This document shows positions 6,486 through 38,524 of a stretch of DNA of 64,000 nt, one piece after another. Source of the stretch: Actinokineospora spheciospongiae (lineage in GTDB: Bacteria > Actinomycetota > Actinomycetes > Mycobacteriales > Pseudonocardiaceae); the NCBI RefSeq assembly GCF_000564855.1, contig NZ_AYXG01000043.1, positions 62,001-126,000 of the forward strand. The letters run 5' to 3'. Numbering within the stretch: the first letter of the stretch is position 1; each line of letters begins with the position of its first letter. A model generated the notes under the pieces. The model did not search any database. It was not told where the DNA came from and saw only the letters and a program-made list of their open reading frames with translations. The position numbers and the translations under genes were made by a program.

Positions 6486-8935
6486 CGATCGCGCCGGAGA
6501 ACCCCACCACGACCGAGAAGCCGCCGGTTCCCGAGGGCCACGTGCGGCTGGTCATCGACGGGGTGGAGGTCGACGCGCCCAAGGGCGAGCTGGTCATCCG
6601 CACCGCCGAGCGGCTCGGCATCACCATCCCCCGGTTCTGCGACCACCCCCTGCTCGACCCGGCCGGTGCCTGCCGCCAGTGCCTGGTCGAGGTGGAGATG
6701 GGCGGGCGGCCGATGCCCAAGCCGCAGGCCTCCTGCACCATCACCGTCGCCGACGGCATGGTGGTCAAGACCCAGATCACCTCCCCGGTCGCCGACAAGG
6801 CCCAGCAGGGTGTGATGGAGCTGCTGCTCATCAACCACCCGCTGGACTGCCCGATCTGCGACAAGGGCGGCGAGTGCCCGCTGCAGAACCAGGCCATGGC
6901 GCACGGGCGCACCGAGTCCCGCTTCGTCGAGACCAAGCGCACCTTCGCCAAGCCGCTGCCGATCTCCACCCAGGTGCTGCTGGACCGGGAGCGCTGCGTG
7001 CTCTGCCAGCGCTGCACCCGCTTCTCCGCGCAGATCGCGGGCGACCCGTTCATCGAACTGCTCGAACGCGGCGCCCAGCAGCAGATCGGCATCGCCGAGG
7101 AGAAGCCGTTCCAGAGCTACTTCTCCGGCAACACCATCCAGATCTGCCCGGTCGGCGCGCTCACCTCCGCCGCATACCGGTTCCGGTCGCGGCCGTTCGA
7201 CCTGGTGTCCACGCCCAGCGTGTGCGAGCACTGCTCGTCGGGCTGCGCGCAGCGCACCGACTGGCGGCGCGGCAAGGTCATGCGCAAGCTCGCGGGCGAC
7301 GACCCGGAGGTGAACGAGGAGTGGCTGTGCGACAAGGGCCGCTTCGCGTTCCGCTACACCGGGGTCGGCGACCGGGTGACCCGGCCGATGGTCCGCGACC
7401 GCGCGACCGGTGAGCTGGTCGAGACGAGCTGGACCGACGCGCTCCAGGTCGCGGCCGAGGGCCTGGCCAGGGCGCGCGACGGCCAGGGCGCCGCGGTGCT
7501 CACCGGCGGTCGGCTGACCGTCGAGGACGCCTACGCCTACGCCAAGTTCGCCCGGATCGCGCTGGGCACCAACGACATCGACTTCCGGGCCCGGCCGCAC
7601 TCGACCGAGGAGCTGGACTTCCTCGCCGCCGCGGTCGTCGGCACCACCCCGGAGACCGGCGTCTCCTACGCCGACCTGGAGGCGGCGCCCGCGGTGCTCA
7701 CCGTGGCCTTCGAGGCCGAGGAGGAGTCGCCGATCGTGTTCCTGCGGCTGCGCAAGGCGGCCCGCCAGAACAAGACCCGGGTGTTCCACGTCGGGCAGTG
7801 GACCAGCCCCAGCGCGGAGAAGACCTCCGCCACCCTGCTGGCCTGCGCCCCGGGCGCCGAACCCGCCGCGCTCGACGGCCTGGGCACCCACGCCCCGGAC
7901 GCCGCCGCCGCGCTGGGCGCCCCCGGTGCGGTGGTCCTCGTCGGCGAGCGCGCCGCCGAGGTGCCCGGCCTGTTCAGCGCCGTGCTGCGGCTGGCCGGGA
8001 CCACCGGCGCCAAGGTGGCCTGGGTCCCGCGCCGCGCCGGTGAGCGCGGCGCGCTCGACGCCGGTGCCGCGCCGACCCTGCTGCCCGGCGGGCGCCTGGT
8101 CAGCGACCACCGCGACCGCGCCGCGGTCGAGCAGGTGTGGGGCCTGGCCGAGGGCAGCCTGCCCCCGGCTCCGGGCCGCGACACCGACGGCATCCTCTCC
8201 GCCGCGTCCGTTGGCATGATCGACGGCCTGGTCATCGGCGGTGTCGACCCGTTCGACCTGGCCGACCCGCAGCTCGCCGAGCGGGCGCTGGCCGCCACCG
8301 GGTTCGTGGTGAGCCTGGAGCTGCGGCACAGCGCGGTCACCGCGCACGCCGACGTGGTCCTGCCCATCGCCCCGGCGGTGGAGAAGTCCGGCTCCTACGT
8401 CAACTGGGAGGGCCGGGTCCGCCCGTTCGGCAACACCCTGTCGGGCACCGGCGCGCTGCCGGACTGCCGGGTGCTGGACTCGCTCGCCGTCGAGATGGAC
8501 GTCGACCTGTTCACCCAGACCCCGGCCGCCAGCGCGGCCGACCTGGCCAGGCTGCCGTCCGTGGCGCGCACCACCCCCGCCCCCTCGGTCGCGGCCGAAC
8601 CGGTCACCCCGGCCGCCGGGCAGGTCGTGCTGTCGACCTGGCGGATGCTGCTGGACGACGGGTCGCTCCAGGTGGACGAGCCGCACCTGGCGGGCACCGC
8701 CCGCCCGGTCGTGGCCCGGGTCTCGCCCGGCACCGCCGCCGCGCTGGGCGTCGCACCGGGTGGCGACATCAGCGTCTCCACCAACCGGGGCGCGCTGACC
8801 CTGCCGGTGCTGATCGCCGACCTGCCCGACGGCGTGGTCTGGCTGCCCGCGAACTCGCCCGGCTCGGCTCCCCGCCGGGTCCTCGGGGCAGGCCACGGCG
8901 ACGTGGTGTCCGTGAACGCTGGAGGCAACGCATGA
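6482..8935 (+). CDS. nuoG: NADH-quinone oxidoreductase subunit G
   Basis: NuoG carries several clusters of the peripheral arm. The 817-aa protein starts with a 2Fe-2S plant-ferredoxin-like domain ([15 protein letters not shown], with a later C for N1b), then the His-Cys segment and the 4Fe-4S set CVLCQRC, and then a molybdopterin-oxidoreductase-like domain. VCEHCSSGC followed about 40 residues on by EWLCDKGRF supplies the four cysteines expected for the off-pathway cluster N7, found in some bacterial complexes. The central region is Ala/Gly rich, like actinobacterial relatives. Start overlaps nuoF and stop overlaps nuoH. Confidence 0.95.
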
Positions 8936-10233
8936 CCAGGGCCCAACTGCTCGCGGACGACCCGCTCTGGCTGATCCTGATCAAGGCCGTGGCGCTGCTG
9001 CTGCTCGGCGCCCTGGCCACCATGGCGATGATCATCCTGGAGCGCAAGATCGTCGCCAGGATGCAGCACCGCCCCGGCCCCAACCGGGTCGGGCCCAACG
9101 GCTGGTTCCAGTCCATCGCGGACGCGATCAAGCTCCCGTTCAAGGAGCAGATCATCCCGGACACGGCCGACCGGAAGGTCTACTTCCTGGCGCCGATCAT
9201 CTCCACCATCCCGGCGTTCCTGGCCTTCTCGGTGATCCCGTTCGGCCCGGAGGTCTCGATCTTCGGCGAGCGCACCGTGCTCCAGCTCGTCGACCTGCCG
9301 GTCGGCGTGCTGGTGGTGCTGGCCTGCTCCTCGCTCGGCGTCTACGGCATCGTGCTCGCGGGTTGGGCCTCCGGCTCGCCGTACCCGCTGCTGGGCGGTC
9401 TGCGCTCGGCGGCGCAGGTGATCTCCTACGAGATCGCCATGGGCCTGTCGATCGTGGCGGTCATCCTCTACACCGGATCGCTGTCCACCGGCGACATCGT
9501 CGACGCGCAAGCCAGTGGCTGGTACTTCTACCTGCTGATCCCCAGCTTCCTCATCTACTGCGTCTCCATGGTCGGTGAGACCAACCGCGCCCCGTTCGAC
9601 CTCCCCGAGGCCGAGTCGGAGCTGGTCGGCGGCTTCCACACCGAGTACAGCTCGATGAAGTTCGCGCTGTTCTTCCTCGCCGAGTACGTCAACATGGTCA
9701 TCGTCTCCGCGTTCTGCACCACGCTGTTCCTCGGCGGGTACATGGCGCCGTGGCCGGTGTCGCTGATCGGGGACAACTACTTCAACACCGGCTGGTGGCC
9801 GCTGCTGTGGTTCTTCACCAAGACCTGGTTCTTCCTGTTCGTGTTCATCTGGCTGCGCGGCACCCTGCCCCGCATGCGCTACGACCAGTTCATGCGGCTG
9901 GGCTGGAAGATCCTGGTCCCGGCGAACCTGGTGTGGATCGTGCTGGTGGTCGCGCTGCGCGCGTTCCGCAACGAGGCCGAGATCTCCGCGACGACGATCC
10001 TGGTCGCGGGCGGCATCGTGCTGGTCGTGTTGATCGGGCTCAGCTTCCTGCTGCCCGACCGCGCGGCGCCGGACGAGGACTCCGACCGGGTGCCGGTCAC
10101 CGGCGGCGGCTACCCGATCCCGCCGCTGGACCTGGTCGTCCCGGACAAGGACGCCGCGGCCCCGCGCCGGGTGCGCCGCAAGCGCCAGACCGCGTCGGTG
10201 GGCGCAGGCGCCGAGAAGGAGACTGAGCAGTGA
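8932..10233 (+). CDS. nuoH: NADH-quinone oxidoreductase subunit H
   Basis: NuoH (ND1) is the membrane subunit that helps form the quinone channel and couples redox chemistry to proton pumping. The 433-aa protein has about eight hydrophobic helices and family blocks [17 protein letters not shown] near residues 43-60, [18 protein letters not shown] and [13 protein letters not shown]. About 70 hydrophilic C-terminal residues (Pro/Lys/Arg rich) are an actinobacterial extension. ATG 8932 overlaps the nuoG stop; a longer frame back to 8137 is a shadow. Confidence 0.96.
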
Positions 10234-10754
10234 GCATCTTCGATCCCTTGAAGGGCTTCGGGGTCACCTTCAGCACGATGTTCAAGAAGGTCGTGACTGA
10301 GGAGTACCCGGAGGACTTCCCCGGCACCGCGCCCCGCTACCACGGCCGCCACCAGCTCAACCGGCACCCGGACGGGCTGGAGAAGTGCGTCGGCTGCGAG
10401 CTGTGCGCGTGGGCCTGCCCGGCGGACGCGATCTTCGTCGAGGGCGGCGACAACTCCGACGACGAGCGCTACTCCCCGGGGGAGCGCTACGGCGCCGACT
10501 ACCAGATCAACTACCTGCGCTGCATCGGCTGCGGCCTGTGCATCGAGGCCTGCCCGACCCGCTCGCTGACCATGCTCAACGACTTCGAGCTGGCCGACGA
10601 CGACCGGCAGCGGCTGATCTACACCAAGGAGGAGCTGCTCGCGCCGCTGCTGCCCGGGATGGAGCAGCCGCCGCACCCGATGCGCCTCGGTGACAACGAG
10701 CAGGACTACTACGTCAACGGCCCGCAGCTCGCCCGAGGGGAGACGCCCAAGTGA
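10230..10754 (+). CDS. nuoI: NADH-quinone oxidoreductase subunit I
   Basis: NuoI is the ferredoxin-like subunit with two 4Fe-4S clusters (N6a and N6b) carrying electrons to NuoB. The 174-aa protein contains both full motifs, [12 protein letters not shown] and [12 protein letters not shown], about 40 residues apart. GTG at 10230 overlaps the nuoH stop; the stop overlaps nuoJ. The length is normal for the family. Confidence 0.96.
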
Positions 10755-11593
10755 GCGCCACCATGCTCCTCGCCCAGCAGGGCGCCGCCACCGTCTCCAC
10801 CGGTGAGGCCGTGTCCTTCTGGGTCCTGGGCCCGCTCGCCCTCGCGGGCGCGCTGGGCATGATCTTCGCCCGCAACGCGGTGCACTCCGCGCTGTTCCTG
10901 GTGATGACGATGCTCAGCCTCGGCTGCATCTACATGGTCCAGCAGGCGCCGTTCCTCGGCTTCGTGCAGATCATCGTCTACACCGGCGCGATCATGATGC
11001 TGTTCCTGTTCGTGCTGATGCTCGTCGGCCGCGACGCCTCGGACTCGGTGGTCGAGGTGCTGCGCGGGCAGCGGCTGTGGGCCGGGGTCCTCGGCGTCGG
11101 CCTCGCGGTGCTCATCACCGGCGCCGTGGCCCGCTCGCTGATCGACGTCACCGACCAGGGCCTCGCCGCCGACACCGCCAACGGCGGTCGCGGCAACGTG
11201 GCCAACATCGGGCAGCTCATCTTCTCGGACTACCTGTTCCCGTTCGAGCTGACCTCGGCGCTGCTGATCACCGCCGCCGTCGGCGCGATGGTCCTGGGCT
11301 ACGTCAACCGCGAGCAGCGCGGCCGCAGGACGCAGAAGGAACTGGTCGAGGCCCGCTTCCGCGGCGAGCACGACCGGCCGTCCCCGCTGCCCGGCCCCGG
11401 CGTGTTCGCCACCGCCAACTCGGTGGCCACCCCGGCCCTGCTGCCCGACGGCTCGGTCGCCCCGGAGTCGCTGTCGCGGCTCATCGAGTCCACCACCGCG
11501 GACAAGCTCGCGGCCGAGCGCGAGTCCGTCGCGGGCACCGGCCCGGCCGCCGGGACCCGCGCCCTCGCCCCCGGCAAGGAGGAGTCGCGATGA
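10751..11593 (+). CDS. nuoJ: NADH-quinone oxidoreductase subunit J
   Basis: NuoJ (ND6) is a five-helix membrane subunit of complex I. The 280-aa protein has the hydrophobic part in residues 1-185, with the block [24 protein letters not shown] containing the family's characteristic distorted helix. The last about 90 residues are hydrophilic and Ala/Pro rich; E. coli NuoJ (184 aa) lacks them but actinobacterial homologues have them. GTG start overlaps the nuoI stop (GTGA). Confidence 0.94.
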
Positions 11594-11889
11594 CGCCGAC
11601 GTACTACCTGCTGCTGTCCGCGCTGCTGTTCACCATCGGCGCCGTCGGCGTGCTGGTGCGGCGCAACGCCATCGTCGTGTTCATGTGCGTCGAGCTGATG
11701 CTCAACGCGGTGAACCTGTCGCTGGTGACCTTCGCCCGGCTCAACGGCGACCTGCACGGGCAGGTCATGGGGTTCTTCGTGATGGTCGTCGCGGCCGCCG
11801 AGGTCGTGGTCGGCCTGGCGATCATCCTGTCGATCTTCCGCACCCGCCGGACCGCGTCGGTCGACGACTCGAACCTGCTGAAGTACTAA
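11590..11889 (+). CDS. nuoK: NADH-quinone oxidoreductase subunit K
   Basis: NuoK (ND4L) is a three-helix antiporter-linked membrane subunit. The 99-aa length is exactly that of the family. It contains two conserved membrane glutamates, in [13 protein letters not shown] and [11 protein letters not shown], which lie on the proton path. ATG 11590 overlaps the nuoJ stop. nuoL follows after 10 nt. Confidence 0.95.
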
Positions 11890-11899
11890 GGGGAACTCG

Positions 11900-13891
11900 G
11901 TGACCGGAACGTTCAACCTGGCGCTGGACACCCAGCCCGCGGCCGGGGCGGCGAGCGCGGCCTGGCTGCTGCTGGTCCTGCCCGCCCTCGGCGCCGCCGT
12001 CCTGCTGATCGGCGGCAGGCGCACCAACAAGTGGGGCCACCTGCTCGGCAGCGGGATGGTCATCGCGGCCTTCGCCTACGCGGTGGTGCTGTTCTTCGAC
12101 ACGACCTCGCTCGCGGCCGAGGACCGGCTGCGGGACCTGCACCTGTTCGACTGGATCTCGGTCAACCAGCTCTCGGTCGACTTCGGCCTGCGGCTGGACC
12201 CGCTGTCCATCACGTTCGTGCTGCTGATCACCGGTGTGGGCTCGCTGATCCACATCTACTCGATCGGCTACCTGAACCACGAGCTGGAGGACCGGCGCCG
12301 GTTCTTCGCCTACCTGAACCTGTTCATCGCGGCCATGCTCCTGCTGGTCCTCGGCAACAGCTTCGTGACGCTCTACTTCGGCTGGGAGGGCGTCGGTCTC
12401 GCGTCCTACCTGCTCATCGGCTGGTACCAGGGCAAGGACTTCGCGGCCACGGCGGCGAAGAAGGCGTTCCTGATGAACCGCGTCGGTGACGTCGGCCTGG
12501 CGCTGGCGATCTTCCTGATGTTCAAGACCATGGGCTCCACCCAGTACGACGTGGTGTTCAGCCAGATCGGCGACCAGTCCACCGGCACCATCGTGGCGAT
12601 CGGCCTGCTGCTGCTCCTCGGTGCCTGCGGCAAGTCCGGCCAGTTCCCGCTGCAGGCCTGGCTGCCGGACGCGATGGCCGGTCCGACGCCGGTGTCCGCG
12701 CTGATCCACGCCGCGACCATGGTGACCGCGGGCGTGTACCTCATCGCCCGCTCCTCGCCGCTGTACTCGCTGCCGCAGGCCGAGGACGCCCGACTGGTCG
12801 TGATGATCATCGGTGCGATCACGCTGCTGCTCGGGTGCGTCATCGGCTGCGCCTACGACGACTTCAAGAAGGTCCTGGCGTACTCGACGGTCAGCCAGAT
12901 CGGCTACATGATCCTGGCCGTGGGCCTCGGCCCGGCCGGGTACGCCTTCGGCATCCTGCACCTGCTCACGCACGGCTTCTTCAAGGCCGGGCTGTTCCTC
13001 GGCGCCGGGTCGGTCATGCACGCCATGAACGACGAGGGCGACATCCGGCGGATGGGCGGGCTGTGGAAGAAGATGCCCGTCACGTTCGTCACCTGGACCC
13101 TGGGCTACCTGGCGCTGATCGGCTTCCCGTTCCTGTCCGGGTACTTCTCCAAGGACGAGATCATCAACGCCGCGCTCGGCCAGGGCGGCACCCGGGGCTG
13201 GGTCTTCGGCGGCATCGCGCTGCTGGGCGCGGCCCTGACCGCGTTCTACATGACCCGGCTGCTCATCCTGGTCTGGCTGGGCAAGCCGCGCTGGGAGAAC
13301 CTGACCAGCCCGGCCACCCCGGACCCGGAGAGCCCCGAGGCGCCGGTCGGCAAGCCGTACCACCCGCACGAGTCGCCCAGCACGATGACCATCCCGATGA
13401 TCATCCTGGCGTTCGGCTCGGTGGCGGGCGGCGCGATCCTGTCCGCGGTGCTGCCCGAGTGGCTGACCCCGGCCATCGGTGAGGTCGAGGAGACCCACGG
13501 CGCGCTGTCGCACACCATGGTCGGCATCCTCACCGTCGTGCTCGCCGCGATCGGCGCGGGTCTGGCGTTCCTGCTCTTCGGCAGGCGCGAGACCGCGGTC
13601 GAGCGGCCCAAGCGGGTGTCGTTCCCGGTCCGCGCCGCGCGCGCCGACCTGTTCGGCAACCACCTCAACGAGGCGCTGTTCGCCCGTCCCGGCACCTGGC
13701 TCACCCGGGCCCTGGTGTACGTGGACAACCGCGGCGTGGACGGTCTGGTCAACGGCATCGCGGCGGGCCTCGGCGGCAGTTCCGGCCGCCTGCGCCGCAC
13801 CCAGACCGGGTTCGTCCGGTCCTACGCGCTGTCCATGCTCGGAGGGTCGATCCTGGTGATCGCCGCACTGCTGATGGTGAGGTTCGCATGA
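11900..13891 (+). CDS. nuoL: NADH-quinone oxidoreductase subunit L
   Basis: NuoL (ND5) is the distal antiporter-like proton-pumping subunit. The 663-aa protein has about 15 membrane helices, the conserved GWEGVGLASYLLIGW and WLPDAMAGPTPVSALIHAATMVTAGVY blocks with the pumping lysines and histidines, and a C-terminal lateral-helix region. The GTG start follows AAGGGGAA. The stop overlaps nuoM by 4 nt. Length and motifs agree with a functional subunit. Confidence 0.95.
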   Translation: MTGTFNLALDTQPAAGAASAAWLLLVLPALGAAVLLIGGRRTNKWGHLLGSGMVIAAFAYAVVLFFDTTSLAAEDRLRDLHLFDWISVNQLSVDFGLRLDPLSITFVLLITGVGSLIHIYSIGYLNHELEDRRRFFAYLNLFIAAMLLLVLGNSFVTLYFGWEGVGLASYLLIGWYQGKDFAATAAKKAFLMNRVGDVGLALAIFLMFKTMGSTQYDVVFSQIGDQSTGTIVAIGLLLLLGACGKSGQFPLQAWLPDAMAGPTPVSALIHAATMVTAGVYLIARSSPLYSLPQAEDARLVVMIIGAITLLLGCVIGCAYDDFKKVLAYSTVSQIGYMILAVGLGPAGYAFGILHLLTHGFFKAGLFLGAGSVMHAMNDEGDIRRMGGLWKKMPVTFVTWTLGYLALIGFPFLSGYFSKDEIINAALGQGGTRGWVFGGIALLGAALTAFYMTRLLILVWLGKPRWENLTSPATPDPESPEAPVGKPYHPHESPSTMTIPMIILAFGSVAGGAILSAVLPEWLTPAIGEVEETHGALSHTMVGILTVVLAAIGAGLAFLLFGRRETAVERPKRVSFPVRAARADLFGNHLNEALFARPGTWLTRALVYVDNRGVDGLVNGIAAGLGGSSGRLRRTQTGFVRSYALSMLGGSILVIAALLMVRFA

Positions 13892-30888: not shown

Positions 30889-30975
30889 CTCAGTGTCCGG
30901 TTGGAACTTCTCGCCCCCGGCCCGCGTTTGACCTTCCGGACCGAACAACGACTTCACACCGGGGAGGAGCGCGCC

Positions 30976-31839
30976 GTGCACCGCCACGCCAACGCGGTCA
31001 AGACCGCGCTGCTCCTCGCCGGCCTCAGCGCGCTGATCGTCCTGGTCAGCTCCCTGTTCGGCGCCACGGCCCTGCTGATCGGCCTCGGCGTGGCGCTCGT
31101 GGTCAACGCCTACGCGTTCTTCAACTCCGACCGGCTGGCGCTGCGCGCGATGCGCGCCCGACCGGTCTCCCAGGCCGAGCAGCCCGCGCTGTACCGGATC
31201 GTCCGCGAACTGGCCACCGCCGCCCGCCAGCCCATGCCCCGGCTCTACCTCAGCCCCACCCAGGCCCCGAACGCCTTCGCCACCGGCCGCAACCCCAGGA
31301 ACGCGGCCATCTGCTGCACCACCGGCCTGCTCGACCTGATGAGCGAGCGTGAACTGCGCGGCGTCCTCGCCCACGAGCTGTCGCACGTCCGCAACCGCGA
31401 CACCCTCGTCAGCGGTGTGGCGGGCGCCCTGGCAGGCGCGGTCAGCGTGGTCGCGAGCCTCGCCCTGCTCACCGGCCTCTTCGGCGATGACGACGACGAG
31501 GACAACAACCCGCTGATGCTCCTGCTGGTGGCCGTCCTCGGCCCGATCGCCGCCACCATCGTCCAACTGGCCGTCAGCCGCTCCCGCGAGTACCAGGCCG
31601 ACGCCTCCGCCGCGGAGCTGACCGGCGACCCGATCGGCCTGGCCAACGCCCTGCGCAAGCTGGACGCGGGCACCCAGGTGACCCCGCTGGCCCCCGAACC
31701 CGCCCTGGTCTCCCAGTCCCACCTGATGATCGCCAACCCCTTCCGCCCCGGCGACGGCCTCTCCAAGCGGTTCTCCACCCACCCGCCCATCGCCGACCGC
31801 ATCGCCCGCCTGGAACGCCTGGCCCTCCCGGACTTCTGA
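30976..31839 (+). CDS. htpX: membrane zinc metalloprotease HtpX
   Basis: An M48-family membrane protease in quality control of membrane proteins. The 287-aa protein has two N-terminal helices (about 10-50), the zinc motif H133-E134-L-S-H137, two more hydrophobic segments (about 145-165 and 175-195) and the third zinc ligand Glu in [12 protein letters not shown]. Start GTG 30976 has GGGGAGG 8 nt upstream; the family length agrees. The NACHT gene follows after 45 nt on the same strand. Confidence 0.93.
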
Positions 31840-31884
31840 TCCACTCCCGGGATTTCCGCCCGCCCGCCCTCTAACCTGAGCCAC

Positions 31885-34812
31885 GTGCGACGAGACCCGC
31901 CGATCACCTTCCGCGGCGCCCTGCAGATCCTCGGCCACCACGACCGCCCCTGGCTGACCCGCCTCAACGGCCTGCTCGGCGGCGTGGTCCTGGCGGCGGG
32001 CGGCATCCCCCCGATCACGGCCCTGTTCGGCTGGGTCGACCAGAAGAACGAGGCCACCGCACTGACCAGGCAGGCGCTGGACGCGGTGTCCGACCGCCTG
32101 ACCCGCACCGGCGGCCTGGACCGCCACCAGTTGGTCATCGCCGCGCACACCACCATCGCCACGGCAGCCGTCTTCGACACCGTCCACGCGGCCTACCCGG
32201 AGTCCAACCTCACCGACCCGGAAAAGCTCGGCATCCTCACCGCGAACTGGGCGGACAAGGGCGAGTCCCTGGTCCGCGCCCTCTACGCCGCGGACGTGCC
32301 CACCCCGTCCCTGGTCCGAGGCTTCCACGAGAACACCGCCGTGGTCCGCTCCTGGGCGATGAGCCTGCTGAACGAGGTCTTCCACTTCCTCGACGGCCTC
32401 GACCTCGACGCCAGCCCCCGCCAGATCCCCCAACTGCTCGCCCTGGTCGAATCCGCCTACCGCGACTCCTACCTGATCCTCGCCGCCACAGTCCCCGAGT
32501 TCAAGGTCTGGTCCGACCTCGGCGAACACGCCGCCACCCGCTCCGCCCTGGCCCGCTTGGAATCCCTGCTCACCACCCCCGTCGCCGCCCAGCCCCGCGA
32601 CCTCCGCGACACCGTCCGAGCGATCAACCGAGCCGAACTCGACCGCCCGATCATCGACGTGGACACCGACGGCTACGGCACCGACGCGGTCTTCCCGGCG
32701 GTCTCGGACATCTTCATCACCCCCCGCTTCCGCGCCTGGTACGCCAGCCGCGGCTCCCGCCTCGGCGACGAGCAGTGGTGGCAGGAAATCTCCCTGGGCG
32801 AAGACCTGGACCTGGTCCTCGCCCGCCACTTCCTCACCGGCGAGGCCACCAAACGCCCACTGCTGCTCCTGGGCCACCCCGGCGCAGGCAAGTCCCTGCT
32901 CACCAAGGTCCTCGCCGCCCGCCTCCCGGACTCGACGTACACGGTCATCCGAGTCCCCCTGCGCCGAGTCGACGCGGACGCCCACATCGCCGACCAGATC
33001 CGCGAAGCCCTCGCCCAGTCCACCCACGGCCGCGTCGACTGGTCCGCCCTCGCCGACCAGAGTGCCGACACCGTCCGCGTGGTCCTCTTGGACGGTCTCG
33101 ACGAACTCCTCCAGGCCACCACGAACGACCGAGGCGGCTACCTCACCGACGTGGTCGAGTTCCAGCGCCGCGAAGCCGCCATGGGCCGCCCGGTCGCGGT
33201 GGTCGTCACCTCCCGAACCCTGGTGGCCGAACGGGTCCGCCTCCCGGACGCAACCCCCGTGGTCAAACTGGAGGAGTTCGACGACGCCCAGATCGACCGC
33301 TGGGTGTCGGCGTGGAACCAGCACAACACCCGCCCGATGGACGCGGAAACCGCCAAGGCGCAAGGAGAACTGGCCCGCCAGCCGCTCCTGCTGCTGATGC
33401 TGACGCTGTACTTCACCGACCCGGCGGTGGGCCCGGTGGAGGACCTGTCGGAGTCCGAACTGTACGGCCGCCTGTTCGACACCTACGCCCGCCGCGAGGT
33501 CACCAAGCAGGCGGGCCGAGTCCTCCCGGACGCGGAGTTCGAGGAGGCCGTGGAAACCCAGTTGACCCGGCTTTCCGTTGCGGCCCTGGGCATGTTCAAC
33601 CGAGGCCGCCAGTCCATCACCGAAGCAGAACTCACCGCAGACCTACTGGCCCTGGGCGAACAAGTCCCGGACGGCGGCAAACTCCTGGGCGAGTTCTTCT
33701 TCGTCCACTCCGCCGAGGCGACCACAGGAACCGTCCACCGCAGCTACGAGTTCCTGCACGCCACCTTCAACGAGTACCTGGTGGCAGCCCGCGTCGTCGA
33801 CGTCCTCCGCGACCTGGCCGAAGGAACCTTCGCCCGCCGCAAACGCCGCCACCCCGACGACGACCTGCTGTTCACCCTGCTGTCGTACCAACCCCTCACC
33901 ACCCAACGCCCGGTGCTGGCCTTCATCACCCAACTGTTCGACACCCTGGGCGACGAAGCCAACGACATCGCGGCGGCCCTAGACCTCCTGCTCCCCACGC
34001 ACCGCCCACCCGGGAACCGCCACCCCGAGTACCGCCCCCTCCCCGCTGACCACATCCGCGCCAGCGCGGCGTACTCGGCCAACCTGTTCCTGCTCCGCGC
34101 CACCATCGCTCCGATCGACCCGGAGACCGTGTGGCCGCAGGACGAAACGGACAGCCGGTGGATCGCCTTGGCCGACCTCTGGGCCGCGGGCTTGGACAGC
34201 GATGGCTACCGCTCGCTGTTCGGCGTGTTCAACTTCGCGGGCGGCAAAATCCGCTCCTCACCGGGCGCGTCCACCACCGGCTTGGACCTCCTCGACGCGC
34301 AACACCTGCGAGGCCGCCGTGCGGTCCTGGAACAGTTCAGCGTTGCGGTCGTCCTCGACCGGCACTACAGCGGATTCGGCAGGGGAAATGACTGGGCGGT
34401 CCACTGCTCGGGCTGGCTGACCGCACTGCTCGTCCAACCCGACTCGTTGGCCTATGGTTTCCTGACTCCGCCGGATTGGATCGAGGTGCAGGAAATGGCG
34501 GAGGTCGCCAACCTCGCCTACGGCGTGCTGGCCGTGCGCTGCGGCGACTGGGAACCGAAGTTCGTCGAACGCTATCTCCGCTGGCTCCTGCGGTTGCCGC
34601 TGCTGAACCCGCCCTCGCCCCTGCCCATGATGCTGGCGTACCACCACTACCGGGAGGTGTTCGACCGGTTGCTCTCCGAGGTCGAGAACGACCGGACCCC
34701 ATACTGGGCGGAACTCCTCCGAACGCTGACCCCTGAACGCCTGGCCGACTTCCCGGTCGGCACCATCGCCGACTACCTCGGAAGCGTCGACATCAGGCTC
34801 CCCAAGTTCTGA
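31885..34812 (+). CDS. STAND P-loop NTPase of NACHT type, orphan
   Basis: A 975-aa protein. Residues 1-290 are mostly helical and resemble the N-terminal helical domains (NNH type) attached to bacterial NACHT proteins; a Gly/Ala hydrophobic stretch is at about 28-48. The NACHT ATPase carries Walker A G330-HPGAG-K336-S337, Walker B with D403-GLDE407 (the NACHT-type DGxDE), a sensor-like VVVTSR, and the YEFLHATFNEYLVAA motif typical of the module's end. The C-terminal about 270 residues are unassigned and show no obvious LRR, WD40 or TPR pattern. Bacterial NACHT proteins include anti-phage immune sensors, so immunity is a reasonable inference. The GTG lacks a clear ribosome site; a TAACCT box 7 nt upstream suggests a leaderless transcript. 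Confidence 0.85.
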   Translation: MRRDPPITFRGALQILGHHDRPWLTRLNGLLGGVVLAAGGIPPITALFGWVDQKNEATALTRQALDAVSDRLTRTGGLDRHQLVIAAHTTIATAAVFDTVHAAYPESNLTDPEKLGILTANWADKGESLVRALYAADVPTPSLVRGFHENTAVVRSWAMSLLNEVFHFLDGLDLDASPRQIPQLLALVESAYRDSYLILAATVPEFKVWSDLGEHAATRSALARLESLLTTPVAAQPRDLRDTVRAINRAELDRPIIDVDTDGYGTDAVFPAVSDIFITPRFRAWYASRGSRLGDEQWWQEISLGEDLDLVLARHFLTGEATKRPLLLLGHPGAGKSLLTKVLAARLPDSTYTVIRVPLRRVDADAHIADQIREALAQSTHGRVDWSALADQSADTVRVVLLDGLDELLQATTNDRGGYLTDVVEFQRREAAMGRPVAVVVTSRTLVAERVRLPDATPVVKLEEFDDAQIDRWVSAWNQHNTRPMDAETAKAQGELARQPLLLLMLTLYFTDPAVGPVEDLSESELYGRLFDTYARREVTKQAGRVLPDAEFEEAVETQLTRLSVAALGMFNRGRQSITEAELTADLLALGEQVPDGGKLLGEFFFVHSAEATTGTVHRSYEFLHATFNEYLVAARVVDVLRDLAEGTFARRKRRHPDDDLLFTLLSYQPLTTQRPVLAFITQLFDTLGDEANDIAAALDLLLPTHRPPGNRHPEYRPLPADHIRASAAYSANLFLLRATIAPIDPETVWPQDETDSRWIALADLWAAGLDSDGYRSLFGVFNFAGGKIRSSPGASTTGLDLLDAQHLRGRRAVLEQFSVAVVLDRHYSGFGRGNDWAVHCSGWLTALLVQPDSLAYGFLTPPDWIEVQEMAEVANLAYGVLAVRCGDWEPKFVERYLRWLLRLPLLNPPSPLPMMLAYHHYREVFDRLLSEVENDRTPYWAELLRTLTPERLADFPVGTIADYLGSVDIRLPKF

Positions 34813-34834: not shown

Positions 34835-35716
34835 TCAGCCGGTGGCGCCCGCGGCCTTGGCCAACTGCATCACGTACTGGCCGTAACCGGACTTCGCCAG
34901 CTTCGCGCCCAGCGCGTACGCCTCGTCGGCGGAGATGAACCCGCGGTCCAGCGCGATCTCCTCCAGGCAGGCGAGCCGAACCCCGGTCCGGTGCTCCAAC
35001 ACCTGCACGAACTGCCCGGCCTCCAGCAGCGAGTCGTGCGTGCCGGTGTCCAGCCAGGCGAACCCGCGGCCCAGGTCCAGCAGCCGGGCCCGCCCCTGCC
35101 GCAGGTACTCCAGGTTCACGTCGGTGATCTCCAGCTCGCCGCGCGGGGAGGGCTCCAGCCCTTTGGCGATCTTCACCACGTCGTTGTCGTAGAAGTAGAG
35201 CCCGGTGATCGCCCGGTTCGACTTCGGCTCGAGCGGCTTCTCCTCGATGGAGACCAGCATCCCGTTCTCGTCGACCTCGCCGACGCCGTAGCGCTCGGGG
35301 TCCTTGACCGGGTAGCCGAACAGCACCGCGCCGTCGATGTCGGAGACGTGGGCCTTCATCAGGTGCGAGAAGCCCACCCCGAAGAAGATGTTGTCCCCGA
35401 GCACCAGCGCCACGTCGTCGGCCCCGATGAACTCCTCACCGATGATGAAGGCCTCGGCCAGCCCATTCGGCGCCGCCTGCTCGGCGTAGCTGAAGCGCAC
35501 CCCGAACTGCGACCCGTCCCCCAGCAACCGCTGGAAGTTCGGCAGGTCGGTCGGCGTCGAGATGATCAGGATGTCCCGAATCCCGGCCAGCATCAGCACC
35601 GACACCGGGTAGTAGATCATCGGCTTGTCGTACACCGGCAGCAACTGCTTCGACACCGCCTGGGTGATGGGGTGCAACCGGGTCCCACTACCCCCGGCGA
35701 GAACGATGCCCTTCAT
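34835..35716 (-). CDS. rfbA: glucose-1-phosphate thymidylyltransferase
   Basis: RmlA makes dTDP-glucose from dTTP and glucose-1-phosphate, the first step to dTDP-rhamnose and other deoxysugars. The 293-aa protein begins [16 protein letters not shown] (nucleotide-binding signature), with [16 protein letters not shown] and EEKP blocks in place. ATG 35716 has AGGAG 7 nt upstream; a frame extending to 35944 enters the tandem-repeat region and was not used. No rfbB, C or D is next to it here. The gene is transcribed away from the repeat array. Confidence 0.95.
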
Positions 35717-35960
35717 CACGGCTCCTGTCGTAAGTCCTTGATCTGACCGGTCCCGCACGCCCCCCGGCCCCCGATCCCTCGGAGTCGAGGCTACCGCGAC
35801 CGACCGGGGCTCCTCGCCCGGTTCGTCCCGCCACCCTGCCGCGCCCCGAGCGCCACCACTGCTCCCGATTGCGCAACCCTGCCCGCCGCCACTCGCGGCC
35901 CGCCGGACGCCCACTCGGCCCCACCACCGCACCCCCGCCGCCAAGCCCCGGCACCCGCCC
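35717..35960. other. upstream region of rfbA, no gene
   Basis: About 245 nt between rfbA and the regular part of the repeat array. It should hold the rfbA promoter (minus strand), which could not be identified with confidence. The last 20 nt look like a decayed repeat unit. Confidence 0.4.
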
Positions 35961-36217
35961 TCGAGACGCCGTGCCCGCCCTCGAGACGCCGTGCCCGCCC
36001 TCGAGACGCCGTGCCCGCCACCGAGATGCGGTGCCCGCCGTCAAGACGCCGTGCCCGCCCTCGAGACGCCGTGCCCGCCACCGAGATGCGATGCCCATCG
36101 TCAAGACGCGGTGCCCACCGACGAGGCGTGGCACCCTCCTCGAGACGCAGCCCCCGCCGTCGAGATGCGGTGGCCGCCCCCCGAGATGCGGCGACAGCCG
36201 AGATGCGGTGGCCGCCG
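35961..36217. repeat. 20-bp-period tandem repeat array, about 13 units
   Basis: Units follow NCGAGAYGCSGTGCCCGCCN. The first eight units (35961-36120) are in exact 20-bp register, with a 60-bp higher-order block seen at 36001-36060 and again, with changes, at 36061-36120. From 36121 units decay and slip by 1-2 bp; the last (36198-36217) ends 1 nt before the yajQ stop codon. Twenty is not a multiple of three, so this is not a coding repeat. No function is known. Confidence 0.92.
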
Positions 36218-37441: not shown

Positions 37442-37972
37442 GTGCCCCAGTGTCCACCTGCCCAGGCCACGTGTCTCCCGCAGACGCCGGGCCGGTCACG
37501 CGTTGGCAGTCGTGGGTGCGTTCGCTGTTTGCTAACGGTCTCCCGCCTCATCAGGTCCCGTGTCTCCTGTGAATGCCGGGTTCGGCTTGCCGGGCAATTG
37601 CGCTGATGTCGTATTCGGCACCGGCGGCCGTGTGGTCAGCATTGCCGATGCGGGAATGCGTGCTCGGGGTTTCGGGCGGGGGCCGGCCGCGCCCCCTGTG
37701 GTGCGGCCGGTCCCCGCGGCGTTGGGGACTGCCCTTTCCGCGGCTGGCTGGGCTGCGGAAAGCATGGGAACAATCGATCGAATTCGGGTGTGCTGCCGAA
37801 TGGTGGGGGGTGGTTGGGCTTTCTGTGGTAGCGCGGTGGCGCGTTTGATGGATCTCTGCTGGTAAGCCGGTGAAGTCGAGGGTGGATCACCCGCAAGAGG
37901 GACGTCGGGAGGGGTGGGGGTGGTTAGTTTTCGGCTCCGAACCGATTGGTCCTACGCAGGGGGTTTGCTGAG
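37442..37972. other. long intergenic region, no supported gene
   Basis: About 530 nt between hicB and the secreted-protein gene. Possible short frames lack ribosome sites and codon bias. TTCGG-CT-CCGAA (37930-37941) is a short inverted repeat about 30 bp before the secreted-protein start. The base composition is a little richer in G/T than neighbouring genes. Nothing else stands out. Confidence 0.4.
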
Positions 37973-38524
37973 ATGGCGTGGAAAAGACGTGTGGGTGCGG
38001 TATTCGCGGTTGTCGCGGTGTTGGGGGGCTCCGGGGTGGGTGCTTCGGCTTCGGCGGACAAGGACAAGGGCAAGCGGGAGGGGGAGGTCGTCGCCCGGGT
38101 GGTGGAGGGGGAGCCGCCTTCGGGGGCGGTGAAGGTGGAGTTGGTGCCGGACACCGGGGCGGATCGGGCGACTGGGGAGGTGGGGGTGCAGGCGGCGTTC
38201 CTGCCGTTCAACTTCAACTTCGACTTCACCGTCAGCCTTGCCTCGCGGACCTTCTGGCCTGTTCTGGGGCGGGCGTGCGTGAGCCTGCGGGGGACCGGGA
38301 GCGCTGACCCGAGCTACTACCAGCGGGAGGTGAAGGTCGAGATGTGGGACGCCTACGGCACCGACACCAAGAAGGGCCTCACCGCCCGGTACTCGCTCAA
38401 CGGCGGCTACTACGGCTACTGCTGGTCGGGCCTGTCCTCCGGGCACGAGCACTACTTCCGCATCTACAAGGACTGGAACCTCGGTGCCCGGGTGTGGGGC
38501 AACGGTTGGACCTCGCCCATCTGA
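37973..38524 (+). CDS. secreted protein of unknown function
   Basis: A 183-aa protein with a clear signal peptide: MAWKRR, then a hydrophobic core AVFAVVAVLGGSGVGA and a likely cleavage after ASASA near residue 30. The mature protein has a charged linker, then about 110 residues rich in aromatic residues with two Cys (in GRACVSLRG and YGYCWSGLSS) that could form a disulfide, and a beta-rich look. Start 37973 gives the best signal peptide; a frame to 37946 would add nine residues. No family was recognised. Confidence 0.6.
   Translation: MAWKRRVGAVFAVVAVLGGSGVGASASADKDKGKREGEVVARVVEGEPPSGAVKVELVPDTGADRATGEVGVQAAFLPFNFNFDFTVSLASRTFWPVLGRACVSLRGTGSADPSYYQREVKVEMWDAYGTDTKKGLTARYSLNGGYYGYCWSGLSSGHEHYFRIYKDWNLGARVWGNGWTSPI

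Follow-up and report, generated by a model that had tools for sequence, protein, structure and literature searches.

The window analysed here is a stretch of 64,000 nucleotides from Actinokineospora spheciospongiae (contig NZ_AYXG01000043.1, positions 62,001 to 126,000). On its forward strand, positions 31885-34812 form a single open reading frame of 975 amino acids with a GTG start and a TGA stop; antisense open reading frames are also present over the gene. A reading made from the sequence alone (the sequence-only reading) had placed an orphan NACHT-type STAND NTPase here and had taken it for a candidate immune sensor. The reading frame, the motifs, the relatives, and a structural model agree with a NACHT-type STAND protein. 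Computation shows its domain layout, the NLR-like fold, the faster evolution of the C-terminal part, the patchy occurrence in several copies, and the independence from htpX. Residues 5-214 (31897-32526) are an NNH7 domain, a helical N-terminal part predicted to act as an effector or in signalling. Next come a NACHT module that includes helical and winged-helix regions (residues 234-754, 32584-34146) and, as the predicted sensor, a C-terminal domain that is hypervariable and mostly helical (residues 776-975, 34210-34809). All three lie on the forward strand, as do the segments and motifs within them.

A scan of named genomes yields at least 431 relatives. The best 80 of these are 34-57% identical to the window protein in the best segment, mostly over 700 residues, which excludes chance. 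The word orphan thus holds for the neighbourhood of the gene and fails for its family, which has these relatives and a named domain. For comparisons within the family, we used a set of 83 proteins (85 frames, minus three shorter than 800 amino acids, namely L127 and two pieces of L134, plus the window protein).

The Walker A motif GHPGAGKS (residues 330-337, 32872-32895), the NACHT-type Walker B motif DGLDE (residues 403-407, 33091-33105; LLDGLDE at residues 401-407), and the F-H...EY motif YEFLHATFNEYL (residues 621-632, 33745-33780) are intact, as the sequence-only reading had stated. In an alignment of 48 sequences including that of the window (A2), residues G330, P332, G333, G335-S337, D403, G404, D406, E407, F623, H625, and E630 are invariant. 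Pfam NACHT matches residues 324-479 with an E of 1.5e-4. The match of the protein alone, at 22.0 bits, is under the curated cut-off of 26.7 bits, and in the genome search the match is marked as over the cut-off (26.3, and 26.9 with neighbours in frame).

The full-length AlphaFold model, built from the 48-sequence alignment, has a predicted local distance difference test score (pLDDT) of 83.5 and a predicted template modelling score of 0.80. In Foldseek, the model matches NLRC4 (E 1.0e-8), NOD2 (E 1.5e-8), and NLRP3 (E 2.4e-8), animal members of the nucleotide-binding, leucine-rich-repeat receptors (NLRs). VIA aligns NLRP3 (7vtp) with model residues 239-794 (Z 15.8, root-mean-square deviation 5.4, 359 aligned), and ORC/Cdc6 proteins come next with Z of 12.9 and lower. 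The bacterial defence STAND proteins EfAvs5 (E 7.5e-5) and Avs3 (E 2.0e-4) are also among the Foldseek matches of the full model; they share the STAND engine but match more weakly than the animal NLRs. Avs proteins have N- and C-terminal parts different from those of the window protein. The likeness to NLRC4, NOD2, and NLRP3 covers residues 234-754 of the model, whereas leucine-rich repeats in these proteins stand against a mostly helical C-terminus here, and Pfam finds neither CARD nor PYD in the window protein. Judged by motif and by modelled fold, the protein is of the NACHT kind and has an NLR-like arrangement of nucleotide-binding, helical, and winged-helix domains. Sequence searches of the PDB return three matches for profile A4 (E 0.12-0.59), none for profile A3 up to E 1, none for profile A2 up to 0.001, and only six for the single sequence (E 0.29-0.83).

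The N-terminal helical domain of the sequence-only reading turns out to be the named Pfam domain NNH7 (PF22738, 'NACHT N-terminal Helical domain 7'), matched with 186.8 bits against a cut-off of 27 (E 8.7e-55) over profile positions 2-225 of 225, and found in all 48 scanned members of A2. Our literature search found no tested function of NNH7 and no paper using that word, and nothing was seen on the NNH7-NACHT family, judged from titles and starts of abstracts. Residues R80 (98%), H88 (92%), E205 (98%), and W209 (100%) are conserved and form no recognised catalytic pattern; NNH7 could therefore be an adaptor or an unrecognised enzyme. The HEPN RNase motif is R-X4-6-H. An HEPN-type RNase was considered and rejected for NNH7, since seven residues separate the positions of R80 and H88 in 83/83 proteins (R...H itself is present in 74).

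NNH7 holds a hydrophobic, nearly charge-free segment at approximately residues 29-51 (31969-32037), a candidate membrane-inserting part. In the window protein, the segment has no D, E, K, or R, and residues 30-54 (pLDDT below 50) belong to the regions where the full model is least reliable. Across the 83 proteins, the length of the segment varies from 13 to 38 residues; it is free of charges in 28 proteins and has one charged residue in 35, two in 18, and three in two. The charge fraction is 0.037 in the segment vs 0.243 in the rest.

Fast evolution of the C-terminal domain

The mean pairwise identity, computed per 25 residues over the 83 proteins, is 0.21-0.71 up to residue 775 and 0.13-0.21 after residue 776. 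The fall at this boundary, at approximately residue 776, is abrupt (0.34 to 0.13). The part after residue 780 ranges from 9 to 367 amino acids, and once reaches 847; one protein (L121) has lost nearly the whole C-terminus. In pairs of proteins with N-terminal parts 60-70% identical, the C-termini are on average 37% identical in the aligned stretch, and similarity is detectable in 21 of 22 pairs.

When folded alone, residues 700-975 form helices and one small strand hairpin (pLDDT 82.1). Foldseek returns zero matches for this part at E ≤ 0.001 in the PDB or in viral models. Pfam gives no match in the C-terminus of the window protein, in line with the earlier statement that it lacks known repeats. 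A resemblance to solenoids was set aside, as the VIA scores (Z of 7.0 or less) are uninterpretable. Of the searches proposed with the sequence-only reading, that by profile names the N-terminal part, and those by profile and by structure leave the C-terminal part without a significant match. The claim that the C-terminal sensor looks new holds only in this sense.

Single-linkage clustering of the C-termini gives clusters of 42 and 25 among 81 proteins, with L121 (too short) and L156 (too long) left out. By profile comparison, L090, L109, and L114 have C-termini linked to the cluster of the window protein with 94, 96, and 90% probability, respectively. Therefore, the C-termini of the clade of the window protein look like one fast-evolving domain. 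A wholesale swap of unrelated C-termini within this clade was considered and is unsupported. The cluster of 25, which belongs to another clade, looks different (2% probability vs the cluster of the window protein), as do the WD40-Roc(-TIR) proteins described below. The domain stands where NLRs carry their sensor, and a sensing role is predicted from this position.

The C-terminal part evolves faster than the rest. We calculated the ratio of nonsynonymous to synonymous substitution rates (dN/dS) by the NG86 method on pairwise alignments split at residue 770, in which the C-terminal parts are 24-62% identical. The C-terminal ratio exceeds the N-terminal one in 9/9 close pairs, by 1.4 to 2.5 times. 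The alleles of the window and of A. pegani, at the same locus, are 64% identical N-terminally and 24% C-terminally, with dN/dS of 0.53 vs 0.98, whereas their flanking proteins are 81-87% identical. When the NACHT gene is compared with shared neighbours more than 55% identical over 80% of their length (4 to 11 genes per pair), its dN is the highest in 7/7 pairs, and its dS in six of the seven. The seven pairs form five groups, three pairs sharing one Microbispora trio; the L100/L116 pair was dropped because it has no shared neighbours. The high dS could come from old alleles, exchange, or relaxed codon use. In 75/81 proteins, the C-terminal part has a lower GC content at third codon positions (GC3). 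The evolutionary pattern speaks for a diversifying receptor and for an immune role.

In three Microbispora, a Ser/Thr kinase gene lies directly upstream of the NACHT gene (L142:6474-7919, with counterparts in L159 and L163). It also evolves faster than most other neighbours.

A patchy and multi-copy family

The best 80 loci are all actinobacterial and come from Pseudonocardiaceae, Micromonosporaceae, Streptosporangiaceae, Thermomonosporaceae, and Streptomycetaceae, among others; many of the genera are filamentous. The whole protein finds matches in 12/16 genomes of the genus and in 19/61 genomes of relatives, and NNH7 is over its cut-off in 63/249 genomes of the family of the window species, with up to four matches per genome, and in 3/396 genomes drawn across the phylum (own genome included in each count). 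Broken copies occur at L127 and L134, and tandem pairs of NNH7-NACHT genes with well separated sequences at L109, L115, L150, and L155. These pairs recall the NLR clusters of eukaryotes. The 152 immediate neighbours of 78 loci, from gene calls made by a simple script, fall into 125 clusters, the largest of which comes from five Lentzea species. The gene family is thus patchy, multi-copy, and partnerless.

Among plasmid records, eight match. Three Streptomyces records cover 67-72% of the query, one Nonomuraea record is 11.85 Mb long and probably a chromosome, and four cyanobacterial records match only at approximately residues 320-645.

In the 48 members of A2, Pfam finds NNH7, P-loop families, and one DUF6986 match (E 0.0034), and no repeat, WD40, or TIR families. 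Four other relatives depart from this layout. L156 (Lentzea indica, 7944-12632, forward strand) is an NNH7-NACHT-WD40-Ras/Roc protein without TIR, and L069 (7218-12263, forward strand) has the same order and ends in a TIR domain (E 3.9e-22). The scan of these two also covered four other members, long or divergent, which have no WD40, Roc, or TIR. Seven further long frames, of ten found, were scanned. Two of these carry the combination, namely L170 (1560-6440, forward strand; NNH7-WD40-Roc-TIR) and L177 (1232-6458, forward strand; WD40-Roc-TIR, with the NNH7 half in another frame of a copy split over two frames), and the other five have no C-terminal domain. Since all four relatives come from one genus (Lentzea, going by L156), a single event may have exchanged the C-terminus for WD40-Roc. 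Established systems use TIR as an immune effector domain, and PADLOC gives weak matches to ThsB and other TIR models. We found no description of WD40-Roc-TIR combined with NNH7-NACHT, in a literature search that did not use that name.

Genomic setting and htpX

Upstream of the NACHT gene lie a gene for a siderophore-interacting protein (Pfam SIP) and then htpX (30901-31839, forward strand; NCBIfam equivalog PRK03072). Downstream and convergent lie an RfbA-type nucleotidyltransferase gene (34835-35719, reverse strand) and a YajQ/DUF520 gene, with complex I and other metabolic genes farther out. The SIP-htpX-rfbA-yajQ neighbourhood is kept in 16/16 Actinokineospora genomes, all with htpX (RfbA and YajQ are rearranged in G009, and YajQ is inverted in G004). 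The NACHT gene stands between htpX and rfbA in two of the 16, those of the window and of A. pegani. In 13 of the 14 genomes without the insert, htpX and rfbA are separated by 11 to 823 nt or overlap by 8 nt (the rearranged G009 is not among the 13). The rfbA gene marks the other edge of the insertion; like htpX, it is a conserved neighbour that we judge to be outside the system.

The sequence-only reading had suggested a link with HtpX and had called for a survey of the adjacency. The survey does not bear the link out: besides its rarity in the genus, the adjacency recurs at one of the 80 other loci, within the stretches examined, and that one is the A. pegani locus. In a quick tree, the window protein branches with that of A. 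pegani as its sister (SH-aLRT, an approximate likelihood-ratio test, 98), and therefore one shared insertion explains both adjacencies.

The NACHT gene also has a promoter-like site of its own. A -10-like hexamer, TAACCT (31872-31877, forward strand), lies 7 nt before the GTG and is the same in A. pegani. The pattern TANNNT occurs 6-8 nt before the start in 22/83 family members including the window gene and is missing in 61; 200 shuffles give a mean of 3.1 and a maximum of 8, and 82/831 other called genes have it. The hexamer is a candidate promoter that may give rise to a leaderless transcript. From the rare adjacency, the single insertion, and this site, we conclude that the NACHT gene is not a partner of htpX but a guest in its neighbourhood.

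Two further features were noted here. A tandem array at 35954-36179, between rfbA and yajQ, consists of about 11.4 copies of a 20-bp unit with 77% matches. A gene at 37946-38524 (forward strand) encodes a 192-residue protein with no Pfam match at E 1e-4, and this protein recurs beyond yajQ and rfbA in the htpX regions of 9/15 other genomes of the genus.

A probable immune receptor and rival explanations

In a judgement made with some reserve, the protein is probably an immune receptor that works as a single gene, a STAND/NACHT protein and bacterial relative of the NLRs of animals and plants, and a candidate sensor of phages or other invaders. Arguing for this are the union of NNH7 and NACHT, the NLR fold of the model with EfAvs5 and Avs3 among its Foldseek matches, the C-terminal divergence, the fast dN, the accessory, tandem, and broken copies, the insertion into a conserved block, the lack of a common partner gene, the WD40-Roc and TIR relatives, and the charge-free NNH7 segment. 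The evolutionary evidence, namely the break in identity and the dN/dS, thus backs the immune sensor of the sequence-only reading as a diversifying receptor, while the part given to HtpX is unsupported.

bNACHT proteins work as single genes, and Kibby 2023 is reportedly the founding bNACHT paper. The anti-phage proteins bNACHT25 and bNACHT12 are described in PMC12169576 as having a central NACHT, an N-terminal part, and a C-terminal domain, as the window protein has. In the same description, bNACHT25 has a PD-(D/E)XK nuclease and NCH1, and bNACHT12 a SNaCT end and no discernible effector; the window protein has NNH7 and a variable helical end of approximately 200 amino acids instead. A variable C-terminal part in the position of the putative sensor is thus present as in the bNACHT class.

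In the proposed mechanism, the variable C-terminal domain would bind a foreign trigger, for which a protein of a phage or a mobile element is the likeliest candidate. Binding would release the NACHT module for ATP-dependent oligomerisation, as the intact motifs and the NLR-like fold suggest, and the oligomer would gather the NNH7 domains, so that the infected cell is killed or stalled. The likeliest route of killing would be that the segments at residues 29-51 emerge and damage the membrane, as HeLo, MLKL, and coiled-coil domains do. The nearly charge-free segment suggests a membrane effector, and this reading is plausible by analogy with HET-S, whose hydrophobic N-terminal helix is described as becoming exposed, and with BELL domains (PMC7889193). 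BELL/HeLo-type membrane-attacking domains, as that source describes them, share with the window protein a helical domain, a hydrophobic segment, and an NLR engine, but BELL sits in a separate protein carrying an amyloid motif. HeLo, MLKL, and plant coiled-coil structures are not among the matches listed for the full model, a search that barely probed the N-terminal part. As the effector step, membrane damage is possible and somewhat doubtful. A larger picture, in which actinomycetes have one-chain 'resistosomes' with a sensor, ATP-driven assembly, and a membrane-inserting segment, the sensor diversifying and being traded in one genus for WD40-Roc-TIR, is speculative and we regard it as doubtful.

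Alternatively, NNH7 may be an adaptor that recruits an effector encoded elsewhere. Such a role bears on the N-terminal step alone and partly coincides with the immune receptor, so that its probability does not add to the others. The relatives with a C-terminal TIR have another candidate effector and need no killer in NNH7, adaptor domains of STAND proteins (effector-associated domains) are described in PMC10907252, and the four highly conserved NNH7 residues lack a recognised catalytic pattern. The scatter of the neighbours over 125 clusters shows no recurrent partner at the locus and speaks against an adaptor, which we consider rather unlikely.

Along with these TIR-bearing relatives, several observations weigh against the immune receptor or its membrane step. 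With a hydropathy of 1.64 in the window protein and a mean of 1.42 over the 83, the segment is a borderline case for a membrane helix; it has two or three charges in 20/83 proteins, and 45/83 have their longest charge-free run in another place. The stretches at residues 101-200 and 676-725 are also variable (identity 0.21-0.26). Every dN/dS is below 1 (highest 0.98), and therefore positive selection is unproven; errors of alignment and lower GC3 can account for some of the C-terminal excess, and the identity limit set for neighbours means that faster ones would be missed. The locus is inherited vertically in some clades, as the upstream gene common to five Lentzea species indicates. Viral contigs give 136 pattern matches and zero confirmed relatives, and phage records give no match. 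In PADLOC, the protein itself has only weak P-loop matches (E 0.011 and 0.059), no Avs model being among these two matches up to E 1, and 0/10 tested neighbours match at E ≤ 0.001. There is thus no support from a defence island, in agreement with the earlier statement that no defence genes flank the gene.

Two other roles for the whole protein are each improbable. A STAND protein that, like those of the AfsR type, regulates development or antibiotic production would have a variable end that tracks changing metabolic signals. AfsR, described in PMC10936776 with SARP, NOD, and TPR domains, is known in Streptomyces, the best 80 matches are all actinobacterial, and the locus is stable in some clades. 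However, Pfam finds no DNA-binding domain in the window protein up to E 1 and NNH7 stands in its place in 48/48, and the gene is patchy, multi-copy, without conserved neighbours, and the fastest of the compared genes in its block. A receptor for allorecognition or conflict between strains, as fungal NACHT proteins can be, would sense competitors, toxins, or fused hyphae. It would account for a C-terminus that is faster between related species (one genome per species was compared) and for the highest dS in six of seven pairs, if this comes from old alleles or exchange; the bacterial NACHT proteins with a tested role, as described in PMC12169576, act on phage. A functional pair in which HtpX cleaves the receptor or is sensed by it is hardly credible, since the 45-nt spacing from the htpX stop on the same strand and the same arrangement in A. 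pegani stand against 14/16 genomes of the genus that keep htpX without a NACHT gene beside it, one shared insertion, and the -10-like site of the NACHT gene.

What may be new here is the sensor domain without a match and the WD40-Roc-TIR combination in one genus. Most of the bacterial NACHT systems known to have been tested come from enterobacteria, and many actinomycetes are antibiotic producers. The family adds a large actinomycete set, of which we found no functional study and in which a constant engine is clearly divided from a fast sensor. Recognition by bacterial NLRs is therefore testable through swaps of the C-terminus among related alleles. The WD40-Roc-TIR relatives join the same engine to an established class of immune effectors. 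If true, the membrane hypothesis would give a mechanism to NNH7, a domain named but unexplained.

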